Source: Candidatus Dormiibacterota bacterium (lineage in GTDB: Bacteria > Chloroflexota > Dormibacteria > Aeolococcales > Bog-877). From it: a stretch of DNA of 19,804 bases. The stretch spans positions 1,987-21,790 of the forward strand of contig PLDE01000090.1 in assembly GCA_003135035.1 (NCBI GenBank). Direction: 5' to 3'. Under the pieces are notes generated by a model, which saw nothing but the letters and a program-made list of their open reading frames with translations, ran no database searches and had not been told where the DNA came from. This document shows, in pieces, positions 58 through 18,724 of the stretch; position 1 is the first letter of the stretch, and each line of letters opens with the position of its first letter. The position numbers and the translations under genes are program-made.

Positions 58-1434
58 TCACTCACCCGAAGGGTCCTGATGGGAACGGTCGACGTCGTGG
101 AAGGCGGTCTGGCCGGCATTGAAGTAAAGATTGATCCGATCCACCGGACCGTTGCGGTTCTTGGCGATGTCGAGCTCGGTCATGGCCGGGTCCTTGCCCT
201 CCTCGTGCATCCCCGGGCGGTAGAGGAACATCACGATGTCCGAGTCCTGTTCGATGCTGCCCGAGTCGCGCAGGTCGCTCAGCTGGGGACGACGGTCGGT
301 CCGCCGCTCCGACTCCCGGTTGAGCTGGGAGACCGCGATCACCGGCACGTCCAACTCCCGGGCCAGGCTCTTGAGCCCGGCGGAGATCTCGGAGACCTCT
401 TGAGCGCGCGAGTCGGAGCGGGTGGTCGCCCGCATCAGCTGAAGGTAGTCGATGATGAAGAGGTCGACCCGATTGGCCGCCCGCAGCCGTCGCGCCTTGG
501 CCCGCATCTCGATCACCGAGAGGGCCGGCGTGTCATCGATGTAGATGTTGGCCCGGCTCAGGGTGTCCATCGCGGTGGCGATCCTCTGCCAGGTGTCGTC
601 GGCCAGCTGGCCGGTGCGGAGGCGGTAGGAGTCGACGCCGGCTTCGCTGCAGAGCATCCGCTGCACCAAGGCGTCCCTCGACATCTCCAGGCTGAACAGG
701 GCCACTCCGTGCTGGCGCTGCACCGCCGCATGACGGGCCACGTTGAGAGCGAAGGAGGTCTTGCCCACCCCGGGCCGGGCGGCGACCACGATCAGCTCCG
801 AGCGCTGGAAACCGGAGGTGACCGCGTCCAGCTTGCCGAATCCGCTGGCAACCCCGGTCACCGAACGCTTGGCCCGCTGTTGGTAGGCGTTCTGCAGGGT
901 GTCCCAGGTCTGGGGCAGGCGCTCGGCGATTGACTCGAAGTCGCTCTTGACCCGGCCCCGGTCGGCCACCTGGAAGACGGTGCGCTCGGCCTCCTCAATC
1001 GCCGGTTGGGCCTCCAAGCTCTCGTCGAAGCCGAGATCGGCCAGCCGTCCCCCGGCGGAGATGAGCCTGCGCTTGAGGGAGTGGTCGGTGACGATCCGGG
1101 CGTAGTACTCGACGTTGGCCGCCGTGGGGACGGAAGCGGCCAGCGAGGTGAGCGTCTCCAGGCCGCCAACCCGTCCCAGCGAACCCTGGCGCTCGAGCTC
1201 GTCGGCCAGGGTCAGAGTGTCGATGGGGGTTCCCTGGGAGAAGAGATGGAGCATGGCCCGGAAGACGTCGGCGTGGGCGGCCAAGTAGAAGTCGTCGGCT
1301 TCCAACTTGCCCACTACCACCCCGATCTGGTCCTTGTCCAGAAGCAGAGCCCCGAGAACAGATCGCTCGGCGTCGACGTTGTGGGGCGGGAGCCGAAGCG
1401 GGGTGGCCGGCCGGAGCTCCGGCCGGGCGCTCAC
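58..1434 (-). CDS. dnaB: Replicative DNA helicase DnaB
   Basis: Hexameric 5'-3' helicase that unwinds DNA at the replication fork and binds primase and the loader. The 458-aa product has the usual family length. The N-terminal DnaB domain (about residues 15-120) opens with LPPHNVDAERSVLGALLLD. The RecA-like ATPase domain follows, with Walker A ARPGVGKT (219-226), SLEM (248-251) and Walker B LFIIDYLQL (325-333), and later DLRDSGSIEQDSD. No intein interrupts the P-loop. The start is GTG at 1434 and overlaps the rplI stop in a GTGA, so the two are translationally coupled. purA follows 9 bases downstream. Membership in the rplI-dnaB-purA operon is seen directly; the function is a family assignment. 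Confidence 0.97.
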   Translation of the reverse strand: MSARPELRPATPLRLPPHNVDAERSVLGALLLDKDQIGVVVGKLEADDFYLAAHADVFRAMLHLFSQGTPIDTLTLADELERQGSLGRVGGLETLTSLAASVPTAANVEYYARIVTDHSLKRRLISAGGRLADLGFDESLEAQPAIEEAERTVFQVADRGRVKSDFESIAERLPQTWDTLQNAYQQRAKRSVTGVASGFGKLDAVTSGFQRSELIVVAARPGVGKTSFALNVARHAAVQRQHGVALFSLEMSRDALVQRMLCSEAGVDSYRLRTGQLADDTWQRIATAMDTLSRANIYIDDTPALSVIEMRAKARRLRAANRVDLFIIDYLQLMRATTRSDSRAQEVSEISAGLKSLARELDVPVIAVSQLNRESERRTDRRPQLSDLRDSGSIEQDSDIVMFLYRPGMHEEGKDPAMTELDIAKNRNGPVDRINLYFNAGQTAFHDVDRSHQDPSGE

Positions 1435-10158: not shown

Positions 10159-10674
10159 TCAGCGCGGAGCGGAACCGGACCGGGTTGGGAGCAGCGTCCC
10201 GACCGAATCGCCGATCAAAGCGAAGCCATGGCTCAGGACAGAGCCCACCCCGACCGGCTGGACCCTCTCCTCGGGGGCGCTGGCCGAGGGGACCAGGGCA
10301 TCGGCAATCCGCTGCCGGTACCAGGGAAAGAGCGAACGCGGCATTCGTTCCGGTTCCACCCAGCCCAGGCGCCAGGCCTCCCGGCTGCGCTGGAGTTGGC
10401 CCCCCACCACCCGGGCCCGAAAGACGACGTCGGTGTCGTGACGAATTCCGGTGAAGCGGTAGTAGCCGATGATCCGCTCGACCTCGATCTCCAGGCCGGT
10501 CTCCTCGCGAGTCTCCCGGACCACCGTGGCCGACGGCTCCTCGCCGGGGCCGACGTGGCCGCCCGGCGGCTCCCAACCGACCGGCCAGGGTCGCAGCTGG
10601 AGCAGGACCCGCCCCCTGCCATCGACCACCACAGCCTGGGCCCCGACGATCGTCCGCTGGCCTAGAGCACGCAC
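10159..10674 (-). CDS. NUDIX hydrolase
   Basis: From GTG at 10674 the product is 171 aa. A canonical Nudix box occupies residues 39-61 (Gly39, Glu45, Arg53-Glu54, Glu57-Glu58, Gly60), which coordinates Mg2+ for cleavage of nucleoside diphosphate-linked compounds. An N-terminal strand AQAVVVDGRGRVLLQLRPW precedes it. A C-terminal tail of about 45 residues is basic and Pro/Ser-rich and has no recognised domain. The 5' end overlaps the M50 gene by 13 bases. The frame is open much further upstream, but that part only shadows the M50 gene. The substrate cannot be predicted. Confidence 0.87.
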   Translation of the reverse strand: MRALGQRTIVGAQAVVVDGRGRVLLQLRPWPVGWEPPGGHVGPGEEPSATVVRETREETGLEIEVERIIGYYRFTGIRHDTDVVFRARVVGGQLQRSREAWRLGWVEPERMPRSLFPWYRQRIADALVPSASAPEERVQPVGVGSVLSHGFALIGDSVGTLLPTRSGSAPR

Positions 10675-11444
10675 GGATTGGCCAGAGCGTTGGCTAGGCC
10701 CTGAGAGGCCGGGGTGATGATGACGTTGATGGTGGGAAAGAGTTCGGAAGGTGGCACCCCTCCGACCACGATCCGCCAGAGCCAGTCGGCGGCCGCAAAG
10801 ATGGGGGCCCCGATCGAGAAGCCGGAATTGAAGAACTCCGGCAGGACGAAGAAGAGGAAAAGGACGGCGAGGAGAATTCCCGTCCGGTTGCGATCGATCC
10901 ACTGGAACAGGGATGGGGCGTGGCTCCGGAAGAGTCCTTCGGCGACCCCATATCCGTCCAAGGGGGGGATCGGAACTAGGTTGAAGACGAAGAGGATGAC
11001 GTTGACGAAAAAGGCCTCGATCAGAATCCAGTACAGGTAGCCGGCCAAAGGCAGGTCGAAGCTGGGCAGGTAGCAGCCCTGGACCGAGGGATCGGCGGCA
11101 ATCAGCAGCCGCAGCAGGATCCCCAGCAGGGCGGCGATGAGGAGATTGCTGAGGGGACCGCTGGCGCACAGCCAGGCGCGCTGGCGACCCCGCCGGATGT
11201 ACATCGGGTTGAACTGCACGGGACGGGCGAAGCCGATCCCGATCAGGACCAGACAGGCCAGGCCCACCGGGTCGATCTGCACGGCGGGGTTGAAGGAGAG
11301 CCGGCCCTGGGCTCTGGGTGTGGGATCACCGTATGAGGTCGCTGTCAGCGCGTGGCAGAACTCGTGAACGGTGAAGCCGATGACGATCCCGGGAACGGCA
11401 AAGAGCAGCAGGACGAGATAGAACTCGATGCCGGTCCCCAACAC
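10662..11444 (-). CDS. Site-2 protease family (M50) intramembrane metalloprotease
   Basis: 260 aa with about six hydrophobic segments. The zinc site is HEFCH (His27, Glu28, His31) inside the first membrane helix, and the third ligand is expected at Asp163 in IPPLDGYG, equivalent to the family's NPDG motif. There is no PDZ domain, so it resembles the compact YwhC/Rip3-less group of M50 proteins rather than RseP. Such enzymes cut membrane-spanning segments. GTG at 11444 begins 6 bases after the 76-aa gene's stop; TTG at 11441 is the next codon and an alternative. The position in an operon with a tail-anchored protein and a Get3-like ATPase raises the possibility of a shared membrane-protein substrate, but this is inference. 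Confidence 0.88.
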   Translation of the reverse strand: MLGTGIEFYLVLLLFAVPGIVIGFTVHEFCHALTATSYGDPTPRAQGRLSFNPAVQIDPVGLACLVLIGIGFARPVQFNPMYIRRGRQRAWLCASGPLSNLLIAALLGILLRLLIAADPSVQGCYLPSFDLPLAGYLYWILIEAFFVNVILFVFNLVPIPPLDGYGVAEGLFRSHAPSLFQWIDRNRTGILLAVLFLFFVLPEFFNSGFSIGAPIFAAADWLWRIVVGGVPPSELFPTINVIITPASQGLANALANPCVL

Positions 11445-11450
11445 CGGATG

Positions 11451-11681
11451 TCAGTCCAGGACGATCTTGCGAGCGCGGCGCCGACCCTTGGGCCCTCGGG
11501 GATGGCGGCGGTGCTCGACCGCCGCCGCCGCCGCCAGGAACATCTCGCGCTGCGCCTTGAGGAGGTGGGCGCGCGACTCGGGGGGCACCAAGTCGCCGAT
11601 TTCTCCGGCGGCCCGGGAAACGACTTCTCCGATCTGGCGCACCGCCCACTCGCCTACGCGCGCCGCTTCTTCACGCTCCAT
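11451..11681 (-). CDS. Small protein of unknown function (76 aa)
   Basis: ATG at 11681 overlaps the ArsA-like gene's TGA by one base (TGATG), and GGGAGGT lies 5 bases upstream, so the gene is translated and coupled. The protein is charged, with a helical middle (AHLLKAQREMFLAAAAAVEH, about residues 38-57) and a basic tail with RRHPRGPKGRRR. There is no membrane segment or Cys. It belongs to no family I can name, though the HLL-AQRE-LAA pattern resembles short proteins found in actinobacterial genomes. Placement between the Get3-like ATPase and the M50 protease suggests an accessory role in that cassette. Confidence 0.7.
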   Translation of the reverse strand: MEREEAARVGEWAVRQIGEVVSRAAGEIGDLVPPESRAHLLKAQREMFLAAAAAVEHRRHPRGPKGRRRARKIVLD

Positions 11682-12847
11682 CAGGACCTCCCGAAATGAA
11701 TGGCCAGCTGGCCGCTCTCCAGGTGCGCCGCCGTGGTCACCTTGCCATGCAGCACCCGCGGCAGGCTGATCTCTCGCTTGTAAGGGCCAACACTGACATA
11801 GAGTTCGTCGTCCCGTTGGGTCAGCTCCACCTGCTCCTTGCTGGCGAAGGGCAGCTGCAGAGTGAGCACGTACTCGTCACCCTCCTTGTGCAGCGCCTGC
11901 GGCTTGGTGTCATAGAGGATGGCACTGGGATCGATGTCGCCAAAGAGCGAGTCAGCGAGCTCGCTCAGATTGGCCAGACCGACTATCTCGTGGTCAAAGA
12001 GCTGGCTGTTGAGGATGGGAACCGGGGAAAACGCGGCCTCCACCTGCTCTGCGTAGCGCTGCTGAGACTTACGCCAGTCGGCGAAGTAGCCCTCGCCGAC
12101 GGCCTCCGGGAGCACCCGGTTGACCAGCACAGCGTCGACCTGGTAATCGTAGAGATTGAGATAGGTGTACGCTCGCTCAGCTTCTTTGATAACCATCTTT
12201 TCGAGGTTGAGCACGAGCCTGACGGTGCAGGTTTTGGAGTCGCTGAGCACCTCTTTCATGGAGTCCAGGTCCAAGAGAAGATCCTTGATCGAGCCGTAGA
12301 TTTCGTCGCCTGGCAGCGGAATTTTGATGAATGGTTGCACGATCGGGCGAGCCACCCGCATGACCTTGCGTTCGAGCGGAAAGATACGGTCCAGATACCA
12401 GTGGGCGACGTCGGGAAAGGCGAGCAACTGTAGGGTCTCACCGGTGGGCGCGCAGTCGACGATCAGCACGTCGTGTTGATTCAGTTGGGCGTGACGCCGG
12501 ATCCACATCAGGCTGGAGATTTCCTCCATCCCGGGCGGAGTGGCCAACTCTTCGGCGATGATCTCATCCACGCCCTGGCTGTTGAACAGCACCGATAGAT
12601 AGCCATGGATCTTGTCCCAGTGCCCCTCCATTTCATGGAGTGCGTTGACCTCCTGCGCGTAGAGGTTCTCAGCCACCTGGGTGGGCTCGGGGGCGAGCTC
12701 CCGGTCCAGCGAGTCCCCCAGGCTGTGGGCGGCGTCGGTGGAGATGATCAGGGTTCTCAGTCCCATCGCAGCACACTTGACCGCGGTAGCGGCGGCCACG
12801 GTGGTCTTGCCCACACCGCCCTTACCGGTGTAGAGGATCACCCGCAT
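11681..12847 (-). CDS. ArsA/Get3-type ATPase with C-terminal Hsp20-like domain
   Basis: 388 aa. Deviant Walker A GKGGVGKTT (residues 8-16), switch STDAAHS (36-42) and DCAPTGETLQLLAFP (131-145) are those of the ArsA/Get3 family. There is a single ATPase half, unlike the double-headed arsenite pump ATPase, and no ArsB-type permease gene is nearby. The last 65 or so residues (about 321-386), with YVLTLQLPF, LYVSVGPYKREI and LAIHFGR, look like the Hsp20/alpha-crystallin domain fused to Get3d-type proteins. The Get3 zinc CxxC is absent. A role in binding or delivering hydrophobic client proteins is more likely than arsenic resistance. The ATG at 12847 has no Shine-Dalgarno but a -10 hexamer 7 bases upstream. 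Base composition dips to about half G+C around 12160-12350. Confidence 0.9.
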   Translation of the reverse strand: MRVILYTGKGGVGKTTVAAATAVKCAAMGLRTLIISTDAAHSLGDSLDRELAPEPTQVAENLYAQEVNALHEMEGHWDKIHGYLSVLFNSQGVDEIIAEELATPPGMEEISSLMWIRRHAQLNQHDVLIVDCAPTGETLQLLAFPDVAHWYLDRIFPLERKVMRVARPIVQPFIKIPLPGDEIYGSIKDLLLDLDSMKEVLSDSKTCTVRLVLNLEKMVIKEAERAYTYLNLYDYQVDAVLVNRVLPEAVGEGYFADWRKSQQRYAEQVEAAFSPVPILNSQLFDHEIVGLANLSELADSLFGDIDPSAILYDTKPQALHKEGDEYVLTLQLPFASKEQVELTQRDDELYVSVGPYKREISLPRVLHGKVTTAAHLESGQLAIHFGRS

Positions 12848-12854
12848 TTGAGCG

Positions 12855-12860
12855 AGTATA
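12855..12860 (-). promoter_or_regulatory. -10 element placing a leaderless start on the ArsA-like gene
   Basis: Minus-strand TATACT is followed by seven bases (CGCTCAA) and then the ATG at 12847, so transcription would begin at or next to the start codon. There is no Shine-Dalgarno in the leader and the -35 region is weak. An internal promoter here would let the ATPase be made independently of the tail-anchored protein. Confidence 0.5.
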
Positions 12861-12882
12861 GAGACGGCCGAAAATCGTCCTC

Positions 12883-13356
12883 TTAGCGGAGGACGAAGAA
12901 GCCCACCACCACCATCACCACCATAACCCCGCTGACCAGCATCACCCGGCGCAGGTCGAGCCAGAGATAGGGGGTGCGGTCGGTCGGGACGGCGGGGCTG
13001 TCATCGAGCGGCTCGAGATGGGCCTGCTGCTGGCGCTGGCGCTCGGCTCGACCGGCTGGGCCCGCCTTCTTGGGAAGAAAGGAGGGGCCCGCCGAGAGGC
13101 TGGTGGCGGGCGCAGCCGCGGCCAGGCCAGGGTTCGCTACTGGCGGTTGGGCGGCTGGCTTCGGGCTTGCCTGGCGCCGGGGCAGGAACGTCCCCGCCGC
13201 CGGGCTGACCGCCGTCTCCGGGGGCACGCTGTCCAGGTCGGCTTCTGGAATCGCCTCAACTGGATTCGGGACATTCGCCGCCACCTGCGATCGGGCGGCG
13301 TTGGGCGTCGGCGGCCGCTTGCGCGAGGTCGAGCGGCGCTTGGGGCGTCTTGCCAA
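12883..13356 (-). CDS. Tail-anchored membrane protein, Pro/Ala-rich, unknown function
   Basis: 157 aa from TTG at 13356, supported by GGAG 7 bases upstream. The N-terminal 130 residues are basic at first (MARRPKRRSTSRKRP), then rich in Pro and Ala and probably disordered. The only hydrophobic stretch is at the extreme C terminus (about 138-156, VMLVSGVMVVMVVVGFFVL), preceded by DLRR and followed by a single Arg: tail-anchored topology, with the bulk in the cytoplasm. Two similar motifs, FLPRR (about 57-61) and FLPKK (about 93-97), each follow an AG and may be docking sites. It is the first gene of the run and lies 35 bases upstream of the Get3-like ATPase. No known family is recognised. Confidence 0.75.
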   Translation of the reverse strand: MARRPKRRSTSRKRPPTPNAARSQVAANVPNPVEAIPEADLDSVPPETAVSPAAGTFLPRRQASPKPAAQPPVANPGLAAAAPATSLSAGPSFLPKKAGPAGRAERQRQQQAHLEPLDDSPAVPTDRTPYLWLDLRRVMLVSGVMVVMVVVGFFVLR

Positions 13357-13792: not shown

Positions 13793-13796
13793 TCAG
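13784..13796. repeat. 13-base palindrome over the YchF stop codon
   Basis: CTGATC and GATCAG flank one central base. The TGA of YchF (13793-13795 on the minus strand) is part of the right arm. It may be chance or a protein site; no T-tract supports a terminator. Confidence 0.4.
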
Positions 13797-14899
13797 ACGT
13801 TGAACAGGAAGTGCATCACGTCGCCGTCCTGGACCAGGTAGTCACGCCCCTCTAGCCGGCGCTGACCGCGCTCTCTGACCGCCGCGTAGCTGCCTGCCTC
13901 CACCAGCTCCTGCCAAGCGCACACCTCAGCCCGAATGAAGCCCTTGGCAAAGTCGGTGTGGATGGCTCCGGCGGCGTCCCGGGCGTTGGCCCCCTGAGCC
14001 ACCGTCCACGCTCGCACCTCCTTCTCCCCGGCGGTGAAGAACGTCTGCAGGCGGAGGGCGTGATAGCCGGCCCGACTGAGCCGCCCCAGACCGGCCTCGC
14101 TCAGGCCCAGACCGGCCAGGAACTCCTCGGCCTCCTGCGGCTCCAGCTCGGAGAGTTCCGCCTCCAGCTTGGCGGAGACGGCGACGAAGTCGGCGCCCTC
14201 CTGGGCGGCTCGGTCGGCGATTCTCCCTGCCGCACCGGCCGCCGCATCCCCGGCCAACTCGTCCTCGTCGACGTTGCCGACGAAGATCACCGGCTTGGCG
14301 GTCAGCAGCTGCGCCTCGCGGACGCCGACCTCCTCCTCGGCGCTGAGGCTGACCCGGCGCGCGGGGAGTCCCTGGTCGAGCACCTCGCGAACCTTGTTCA
14401 GACCCGAGACCTCCGCCTGCAGTTCCCGCGAGGCGGCTCCCGCCCGGGCCGTCTTGCCGGAGCGCTCGAGGCGGCGGTCGACCGTGCCCAGGTCGGCCAG
14501 AGTCAGCTCGAGCTCCAAGATCTCCAGATCACGGAGAGGATCCACGGCGCCCTCGACGTGGCCGACCTCGGACGCGGTGAAGGCACGGAGCACGAAGGCG
14601 ATGGCGTCGGCGCTCCGAATATGGCCCAGGAACTGGTTACCCAGCCCCTCACCCGAGTGAGCACCGCGGACCAGGCCAGCGATGTCGGTGAAGGTGACCG
14701 TGGCGGGAATCACCTTGGGGGGATGGAATACCTCGGCCAACTGGCGGATGCGGTCATCCGGAACGGGAACCACCCCGGTGTTGGGATCGATGGTTGTGAA
14801 GGGAAAGGCACCCACCGCGACGTGGGCTCGGGTCAGGGCGTTGAAGAGCGTCGACTTACCGGCATTGGGCAGCCCAACGATGCCAACTGAGAGGCTCAA
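13793..14899 (-). CDS. ychF: Redox-regulated ATPase/GTPase YchF (Obg-like)
   Basis: 368 aa, the family's usual length. The G1 loop is GLPNAGKS (residues 9-16), the switch region holds FTDIAGLVRGA, and NVDE replaces the NKxD guanine motif, as in YchF/OLA1, which prefer ATP. A coiled-coil segment (about 130-200) precedes the C-terminal TGS-like domain with IHTDFAKGFIRAEV and the conserved end DVMHFLFNV. YchF associates with ribosomes and is linked to stress and translation control. The start is TTG at 14899, with GAGGCGG 6 bases upstream. It is the last gene of the three-gene minus-strand operon and follows the HAD phosphatase by 10 bases. Confidence 0.96.
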   Translation of the reverse strand: MSLSVGIVGLPNAGKSTLFNALTRAHVAVGAFPFTTIDPNTGVVPVPDDRIRQLAEVFHPPKVIPATVTFTDIAGLVRGAHSGEGLGNQFLGHIRSADAIAFVLRAFTASEVGHVEGAVDPLRDLEILELELTLADLGTVDRRLERSGKTARAGAASRELQAEVSGLNKVREVLDQGLPARRVSLSAEEEVGVREAQLLTAKPVIFVGNVDEDELAGDAAAGAAGRIADRAAQEGADFVAVSAKLEAELSELEPQEAEEFLAGLGLSEAGLGRLSRAGYHALRLQTFFTAGEKEVRAWTVAQGANARDAAGAIHTDFAKGFIRAEVCAWQELVEAGSYAAVRERGQRRLEGRDYLVQDGDVMHFLFNV

Positions 14900-18095: not shown

Positions 18096-18473
18096 TTAGT
18101 AGGGAGCTTGTAGTTCCGGGAACATAGGGAAATGGCGGACATTGCGCGTTAGCAGCCGCGCTCCGGTGCGGATGGCCGTGGCGGCTATGGCCAGATCCGC
18201 GCCATCGATTGCCTGGTGACTGGGCAGCCAGCGGCGCCCCAGAGCACCCGCGCCCTCGGCAATCTCGGCGTCAACAGGATGCCAGATCAGCGTGGCAAGC
18301 AGCAACCGTGTTGGTTCCTCTTCTCTGGGCCGCATCCCGGCCAGTGTCTCCAGCCTGGTGATCTCACTGGCATGTAGCGGCGCCTCAGCCCGCTCCCGTT
18401 CAAGGAGTACAGCCGCACCGGTATGGCCACGCAGGTAGTCGATCAGCACTGAGGTATCGACCAAAGCCGTCAT
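18096..18473 (-). CDS. vapC: VapC-type PIN-domain ribonuclease toxin
   Basis: 125 aa. The PIN active site is visible: Asp6 in LVDTSVLIDY, Glu42 in ITRLETLAG and Asp93 in IDGADLAIAATA; the fourth acidic position reads TRN, so that residue is replaced by Asn111. VapC toxins cut tRNA or rRNA when released from VapB. ATG at 18473 overlaps the antitoxin's TGA by 4 bases (ATGA), the classic toxin-antitoxin junction. It ends 53 bases from the helicase stop, convergent. Its target cannot be predicted. Confidence 0.93.
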   Translation of the reverse strand: MTALVDTSVLIDYLRGHTGAAVLLERERAEAPLHASEITRLETLAGMRPREEEPTRLLLATLIWHPVDAEIAEGAGALGRRWLPSHQAIDGADLAIAATAIRTGARLLTRNVRHFPMFPELQAPY

Positions 18474-18724
18474 GATCCGGACCCATCCACCCGAGACCCC
18501 GAGCGCAGGTGATCCACCCAGGCTTCCCCCTCCTGGCGATCCTGCCCCCAGGCACCCAAGGCACTTCGCATCGCGGCCAGATCATCTGCAGTGCAGCGCT
18601 CCACCCCGTACACCGTCTCCACCGCGGCTCGGATCAGGGCAGAGATGGAGCTGCCCGTGCGGGCGGACTCCGCGTCCAGGGCTTGCCGCTCCTCGCGAGT
18701 CAGCGAGATCTGCGTTCTCTGCAT
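18470..18724 (-). CDS. vapB: VapB-type ribbon-helix-helix antitoxin
   Basis: 84 aa. N-terminal RTQISLTREERQALDAES, then SISALIRAAVETVYG, is a ribbon-helix-helix fold; the C-terminal half, with MRSALGAWGQ and a hydrophilic tail, would wrap the toxin. It neutralises the VapC encoded just downstream and, with it, represses the operon. ATG at 18724 has no Shine-Dalgarno, and a TANNNT hexamer lies 6 bases upstream, so the mRNA may be leaderless. The operator sits over this start. Confidence 0.9.
   Translation of the reverse strand: MQRTQISLTREERQALDAESARTGSSISALIRAAVETVYGVERCTADDLAAMRSALGAWGQDRQEGEAWVDHLRSGSRVDGSGS

Follow-up and report, generated by a model that had tools for sequence, protein, structure and literature searches.

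A Get3d-type ATPase locus in Dormibacterota: a small tail-bearing protein as candidate partner, and a tail-anchored protein as conserved neighbour

A stretch of 19,804 nucleotides (nt) from a Candidatus Dormiibacterota genome (contig PLDE01000090.1) is considered here. It is referred to as the window, and positions are those of the whole window. Situated in it is a gene for a Get3d-type ATPase with a C-terminal alpha-crystallin (Hsp20-like) domain, preceded by a gene for a tail-anchored (TA) protein and followed directly by one for a protein of 76 amino acids (aa) (Table 1). The small gene tracks the ATPase, and its product is a likelier partner than the TA protein. By analogy with known docking tails, it is proposed that the small protein would dock in trans on the ATPase and that the TA protein would be an independent neighbour, a proposal that we consider evenly poised. 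An earlier sequence-only reading, from which the 76-aa gene (11681..11451) and an M50 protease gene were absent, had cast the TA protein as the dedicated client of the ATPase. The pair that it described is real, but the notion of a dedicated client is weakened by the retention of the TA gene in a family of genomes that lacks the ATPase.

The genes were sought in 110 genomes of the class, grouped into families f1 to f4; these are the search tool's own labels, on which the family assignments rest. The genome of the window (309 contigs totalling 1.92 Mb, completeness 64%, a single match to the window ATPase) is assigned to f1. At a threshold of E 1e-40 the ATPase was found in 87 of the 110 genomes, matched in pieces in G004 and G037. 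The small gene, sought with a profile built from 20 sequences (A5), was also found in 87, and the TA family, sought with a profile built from 32 proteins (A1), in 103, one of which (G061) has it in two places. It is apparent that the ATPase and the small gene are jointly absent from f3 (0/18 genomes for each), where the TA gene is present in 18/18. Exceptions to the co-occurrence were G008, with a small gene near a contig start and no ATPase, and G092, with a truncated ATPase and no small-gene match.

The PF02374 domain was searched for in seven f3 genomes. Four of them (G050, G054, G056 and G061) gave only matches of about 1e-8 or weaker, which do pass the Pfam cut-off and are taken to be related P-loop ATPases because the same search was positive in all 14 control genomes. 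In the other three (G052, G058 and G060) a tandem ArsA-type pair without the Hsp20-like domain lies at another site. No downstream tail-bearing open reading frame (ORF) was found at these ArsA-type loci, nor at that of G184, which likewise lacks the domain.

The ATPase has the domain architecture of Get3d. As the sequence-only reading had recognized, it is a single-headed ArsA/Get3 ATPase with an Hsp20-like C terminus: ArsA_ATPase (PF02374) is matched in one stretch (residues 1-302, E 1.9e-89), and PF17886 follows. The protein scores above the cut-off of TIGR00345 (GET3_arsA_TRC40) and aligns over its full length to 8egk and 8elf, and its deviant Walker A P-loop, TGKGGVGKT, is invariant in 41 ATPase sequences. 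In the predicted monomer model, strands lie within residues 317-387, and two helices that might contribute to a hydrophobic client chamber at 145-173 and 181-201. There is no C..C in the translation, and hence no zinc-binding CXXC, so that three marks of Get3d (a single Get3/ArsA domain, a C-terminal alpha-crystallin domain and the lack of CXXC) are present. The score against the cyanobacterial NosAFP equivalog NF050088 (146.2 bits, cut-off 325) shows that the protein is not that equivalog, although the wider architecture is retained.

There are, nevertheless, differences from the known relatives. By profile score, algal ArsA1 (254 bits) and archaeal Get3 (246 bits) are closer to the window ATPase than are NosGet3d (All4481; 132 bits) or AtGet3d (79 bits). 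Its switch I residues are invariant in the 41 sequences, whereas those of NosGet3d are described as degenerate (PMC10248533), and it differs further from Get3d by the tail-bearing gene downstream. The Hsp20-like domain is an addition relative to archaeal and eukaryotic Get3/TRC40. Against the models of the mycobacterial Get3-like pair (6bs3; BagA/BagB in NCBIfam), the window ATPase scored 59 bits with a cut-off of 400 and 42 with a cut-off of 521. A search of the open-licence literature found nothing joining Get3d with IXI or Dormibacter with tail-anchored, no paper combining ArsA, HSP20, tail-anchored and bacteria, and none on topic for BagA/BagB.

Get3-type ATPases that match the window ATPase across the Hsp20-like C terminus also occur in records titled Bacillota (or its genera) and Methylomirabilota (L052, L055-L058, L060, L063, L064, L067, L070, L074, L076-L078, L080, L082-L085, L091, L092, L094, L099, L105, L107 and L109). 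Their presence there fits poorly with the view that such an architecture arose in connection with the emergence of photosynthesis.

The small protein ends in a short element resembling a docking tail, and this ending was counted over 95 distinct ATPase loci from several phyla (L001-L110, repeats dropped). In a first count, 94 loci with at least 450 nt of downstream sequence were scanned for an ORF of 50-130 aa with the strict ending [IV]-x-[ILV]-[DE]-stop. Such an ORF was present in 58, looser endings were seen in 11 (that of L075 looks like chance) and none in 25, two of which (L039 and L041, from Dormibacterota) have the small gene by the A5 profile (genomes G019 and G005). As controls, the strict ending was found at 60 of 15,443 random anchors and in 16 of the 948 ORFs that were at least 150 aa long. 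Models in which the tail had been masked placed the small gene beside 70 of the 95 ATPases, with 60 strict and 10 looser endings, and all 70 proteins carry a C-terminal I-x-[ILV] element. Type A lies beside 49 loci (44 strict, 5 loose) and type B beside 21 (16 strict, 5 loose); one further type A match lies elsewhere. The small-protein types A5 (Dormibacterota, Methylomirabilota and some others) and A6 (Bacillota and L059) may be homologous, the hhalign probability being 46% (E 2e-4).

The same tail is also seen on a different fold. A MarR model, likewise with the tail masked, gave upstream matches in 19 Bacillota loci, 17 with the strict tail and 2 ending in I-x-I-Q, and once elsewhere; the four MarR genes scanned matched PF01047. 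The C termini of the MarR proteins in Bacillota loci are of the KKIEIE type (e.g. L082:5329-5808). On the ATPase itself the strict tail was found in 0 of 95 cases. As the ATPase chains have no tail of their own, it is proposed that the small protein and, in Bacillota, MarR as well supply one in trans.

The mechanism proposed from these observations is modelled on the alpha-crystallin proteins. The I-x-I tail of small heat-shock proteins is described as binding the beta4/beta8 groove (PMC3638399), and BAG3 as docking in trans on HSPB8 (PMC10351472). The likeness lies in a short I-x-I/V element that docks on an alpha-crystallin domain. Here, in contrast, a separate two-helix protein or MarR bears the element as its free C terminus, and the domain that would receive it is part of an ATPase. 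The locus would be centred on the Get3d-type ATPase, presumably a dimer, and its most constant partner in the class would be the directly downstream protein, a predicted helical hairpin with a free [IV]-x-[ILV]-[DE] tail. The tail, acting in trans, may occupy the beta4/beta8 groove in the ATPase's alpha-crystallin domain, as I-x-I tails do in small heat-shock proteins. In Bacillota, MarR could share that groove, and gene control would then be coupled to the occupancy of the chaperone. The TA protein would be an independent membrane protein that shares the neighbourhood by descent, perhaps a client of the ATPase among several, but not dependent on it. A tentative generalization, somewhat more apt to fail than to hold, is that in bacterial Get3d-type ATPases this domain serves as a docking hub, receiving in trans the C-terminal I-x-I/V-acid tails of dedicated small proteins and, in Bacillota, of MarR. 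These would be the missing partners of Get3d; chaperone occupancy would free or trap the regulator as a feedback switch, and the TA protein would be one membrane client in Dormibacterota. According to PMC10248533, interaction partners of Get3d have yet to be found and the role of its alpha-crystallin domain is unclear; the small gene, which is conserved, accompanies the ATPase in this class and encodes a docking-type tail, provides a concrete candidate for such a partner and could account for the additional domain.

Several observations weigh against docking in trans. The partner is not universal, for the tail-masked models find no small gene at 25 of the 95 ATPase loci. The tail-less loci of the first count, all but two, belong by title to other Chloroflexota groups, and six loci from such groups that have the Hsp20-like domain show no tail ORF (one of them has only 56 nt downstream). 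The tail was noticed before it was counted, and even the models with the tail masked go back to sequences chosen for their tails; that selection also means that an invariant tail in alignments A4 to A7 is no evidence on its own. The loci are related by descent, so that the counts are not independent events. The Get3d alpha-crystallin domain is described (PMC10248533) as packing on the Get3 body without oligomerization features, and the groove may therefore be altered. Lastly, the adjacency of the TA gene across three families (81 of 84 genomes) leaves room for a real link with that protein.

The tail could instead serve self-assembly or a separate small heat-shock protein, the connection with the ATPase being merely operonic. 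Small heat-shock proteins exist in most bacteria, and the 25 ATPase loci without the small gene manage without it; but the joint absence of ATPase and small gene from all 18 f3 genomes, and the recurrence of the same tail on MarR beside the same ATPase in Bacillota, make this other use rather unlikely.

The second alternative concerns the TA protein, which would be caught by the ATPase via its membrane helix and brought to the membrane as a dedicated client. The gene order is conserved: both genes occur in 84 of the 110 genomes. In 81 of these they share contig and strand, with the TA gene upstream, and in the other 3 they are on separate contigs. The distance between matches is below 200 nt in 55 of the 81 and 204-2282 nt in 26, 24 of the larger gaps belonging to f4. 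In the five f4 loci with such gaps that were read (L153, L155, L156, L159 and L160), at least one additional ORF, resembling DUF1003 by eye, lies between the two genes; the one inserted ORF scanned matched DUF1003 (PF06210). In the window the gap is 35 nt, as had been given. Also in favour are the Get3d fold of the ATPase and the capture of a TA protein by NosGet3d and AtGet3d, as reported in PMC10248533. The ATPase occurs without the TA gene in G033, G076 and G093, on contigs of 5.1-8.4 kb, with a TA fragment (E 3e-4) at the contig end in G093; neither gene was found in G008, G017, G043 or G077.

Transcription signals point in both directions. In f2, 12 of 17 loci have a promoter-like TACGCT ahead of the TA start and the rest have variants of it, and no such element lies in the short gap just before the ATPase; this favours a client. 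In f1, 12 of 13 loci (window included; in the thirteenth, L007, the ATPase is split) have a TATACT within the gap, 12-15 nt ahead of the ATPase start, and such a promoter-like element of the ATPase's own speaks against a dedicated client. A scan for a two-hexamer consensus found no classical promoter. The elements suggest leaderless transcripts, with the ATPase in f1 probably transcribed from its own promoter.

Further observations come from the genomes without the ATPase. The TA gene occurs without it in 19 genomes, the 18 of f3 and G080. Residues P124, R127, P129 and D134 are invariant in 29 TA sequences, 7 of which are from ATPase-less genomes, and the f3 N terminus remains basic. The retention of these features without the ATPase indicates that the TA protein is under selection independently of it. 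The gene is thus independent of the ATPase in f3, which argues against an obligate client; handling of the TA protein by the ATPase where both occur is still compatible with this. The mean Kyte-Doolittle value of the TA helix is 2.85 in f1, 3.13 in f2, 2.66 in f3 and 2.57 in f4. The higher averages in f1 and f2 than in f3 favour a client, but the f3 helix resembles that of f4. Eight weak relatives of the TA protein from elsewhere in the phylum do not lie beside an ArsA gene. A dedicated client is therefore considered unlikely. Family f3 represents a natural knockout, showing that the TA gene is viable without the ATPase and guarding against the reading of every neighbour as a client.

Yeast Get2 has a basic N terminus, a flexible linker and a membrane helix. 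By analogy, the TA protein might be a Get2-like receptor holding the ATPase by its basic N terminus, and its topology (family means of 8.3 to 8.7 K or R in the first 30 residues, a Pro/Ala-rich linker and a terminal helix) and the conserved gene order agree with this, but the f3 N terminus is equally basic (8.7) where such an ATPase is absent, and a receptor role is highly unlikely.

The TA assignment itself is well founded. As the sequence-only reading had it, the protein is hydrophobic solely at the C terminus, with a single Kyte-Doolittle window (138-156; the runner-up reaches 0.86). Its one helix falls within roughly the last 30 residues and no other segment is hydrophobic, and it alone among the 23 window ORFs tested has its one such segment at the extreme C terminus. 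In 47 TA sequences, window included, the helix is followed by 1-7 residues; at a laxer Kyte-Doolittle threshold of 1.2, extra hydrophobic windows in these 47 total 1 in f1 and 5 in f2. The start and frame of the gene are supported by the conservation of the basic N-terminal motif and the membrane-proximal motif in relatives. No Pfam or NCBIfam match was obtained at E 1. A SecE identity was rejected on that ground and because no SecE motif was seen by eye, and [IV]P[LFT] was dropped as an IPV-type docking motif, being equally conserved in f3 without this ATPase. The linker contains two [ST]FLP[RK][RK] elements (13174-13191 and 13066-13083); one to three LP-basic elements were seen in 11 of 11 f1 TA sequences and in 1 of 36 others checked (L023).

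A phylum-wide search gave TA matches in 66 of 400 genomes, 53 of them within the class and 13 weak (best 5.5e-8); as it mostly scored ten candidates per genome, absence elsewhere is not firm. The eight of the 13 weak relatives that were fetched have a similar layout. Among their neighbours (ten proteins scanned) there was no ArsA and no common theme. For six of the eight, the genome does contain a strong PF02374 gene, located on a different contig or at a distance of hundreds of kilobases.

Table 1. Coordinates of the ATPase locus and its parts in the window
Feature	Position	Strand	Remarks
YchF ATPase gene, upstream neighbour	13793..14899	-	TIGR00092
TA protein gene	12883..13356	-	157 aa, TTG start; N terminus basic, linker rich in Pro and Ala, single membrane helix at C terminus
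TA membrane-proximal motif [IV]PxxR[VTI]P[YF]xxxD[LVI], residues 124-138	12943..12987	-	Alignment of relatives
TA membrane helix, residues 138-156 of 157	12889..12945	-	Kyte-Doolittle 2.90
TATACT, candidate -10 element of leaderless ATPase transcript	12855..12860	-	-13 from ATPase ATG
Get3d-like ATPase, 388 aa, ATG start: one Get3/ArsA domain and C-terminal alpha-crystallin (Hsp20-like) domain	11681..12847	-	
ArsA_HSP20 domain PF17886, residues 323-385	11693..11881	-	E 4.7e-20
76-aa partner candidate, two predicted helices and C-terminal tail	11451..11681	-	One-base overlap with ATPase stop
C-terminal tail I-V-L-D of 76-aa protein, [IV]-x-[ILV]-[DE]-stop motif	11454..11465	-	
M50 (site-2 type) membrane metalloprotease gene	10662..11444	-	PF02163; 6 nt past small gene

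The genes flanking the locus recur in other families. An M50 gene also lies close to the TA gene in f1, f3 and f4 loci and in some of those of f2; among the 11 f3 loci fetched, an M50 match lies downstream in 9 and YchF upstream in 9. Behind the TA gene in f3, a bactofilin-like gene stands in for the ATPase and the small gene (L141-L148, L150 and L151). An ORF of this kind, of 136-159 aa, comes next after the TA gene in 9 of the 11 (L141-L147, L150 and L151), while L148 has a 68-aa ORF ahead of it and L149 stops at a contig edge. The one bactofilin-like protein scanned matched PF04519 (E 7.8e-25). Elsewhere in the window, at 18096-18724, a PIN (PF01850) and RHH (PF01402) gene pair has a VapBC-like toxin-antitoxin layout.
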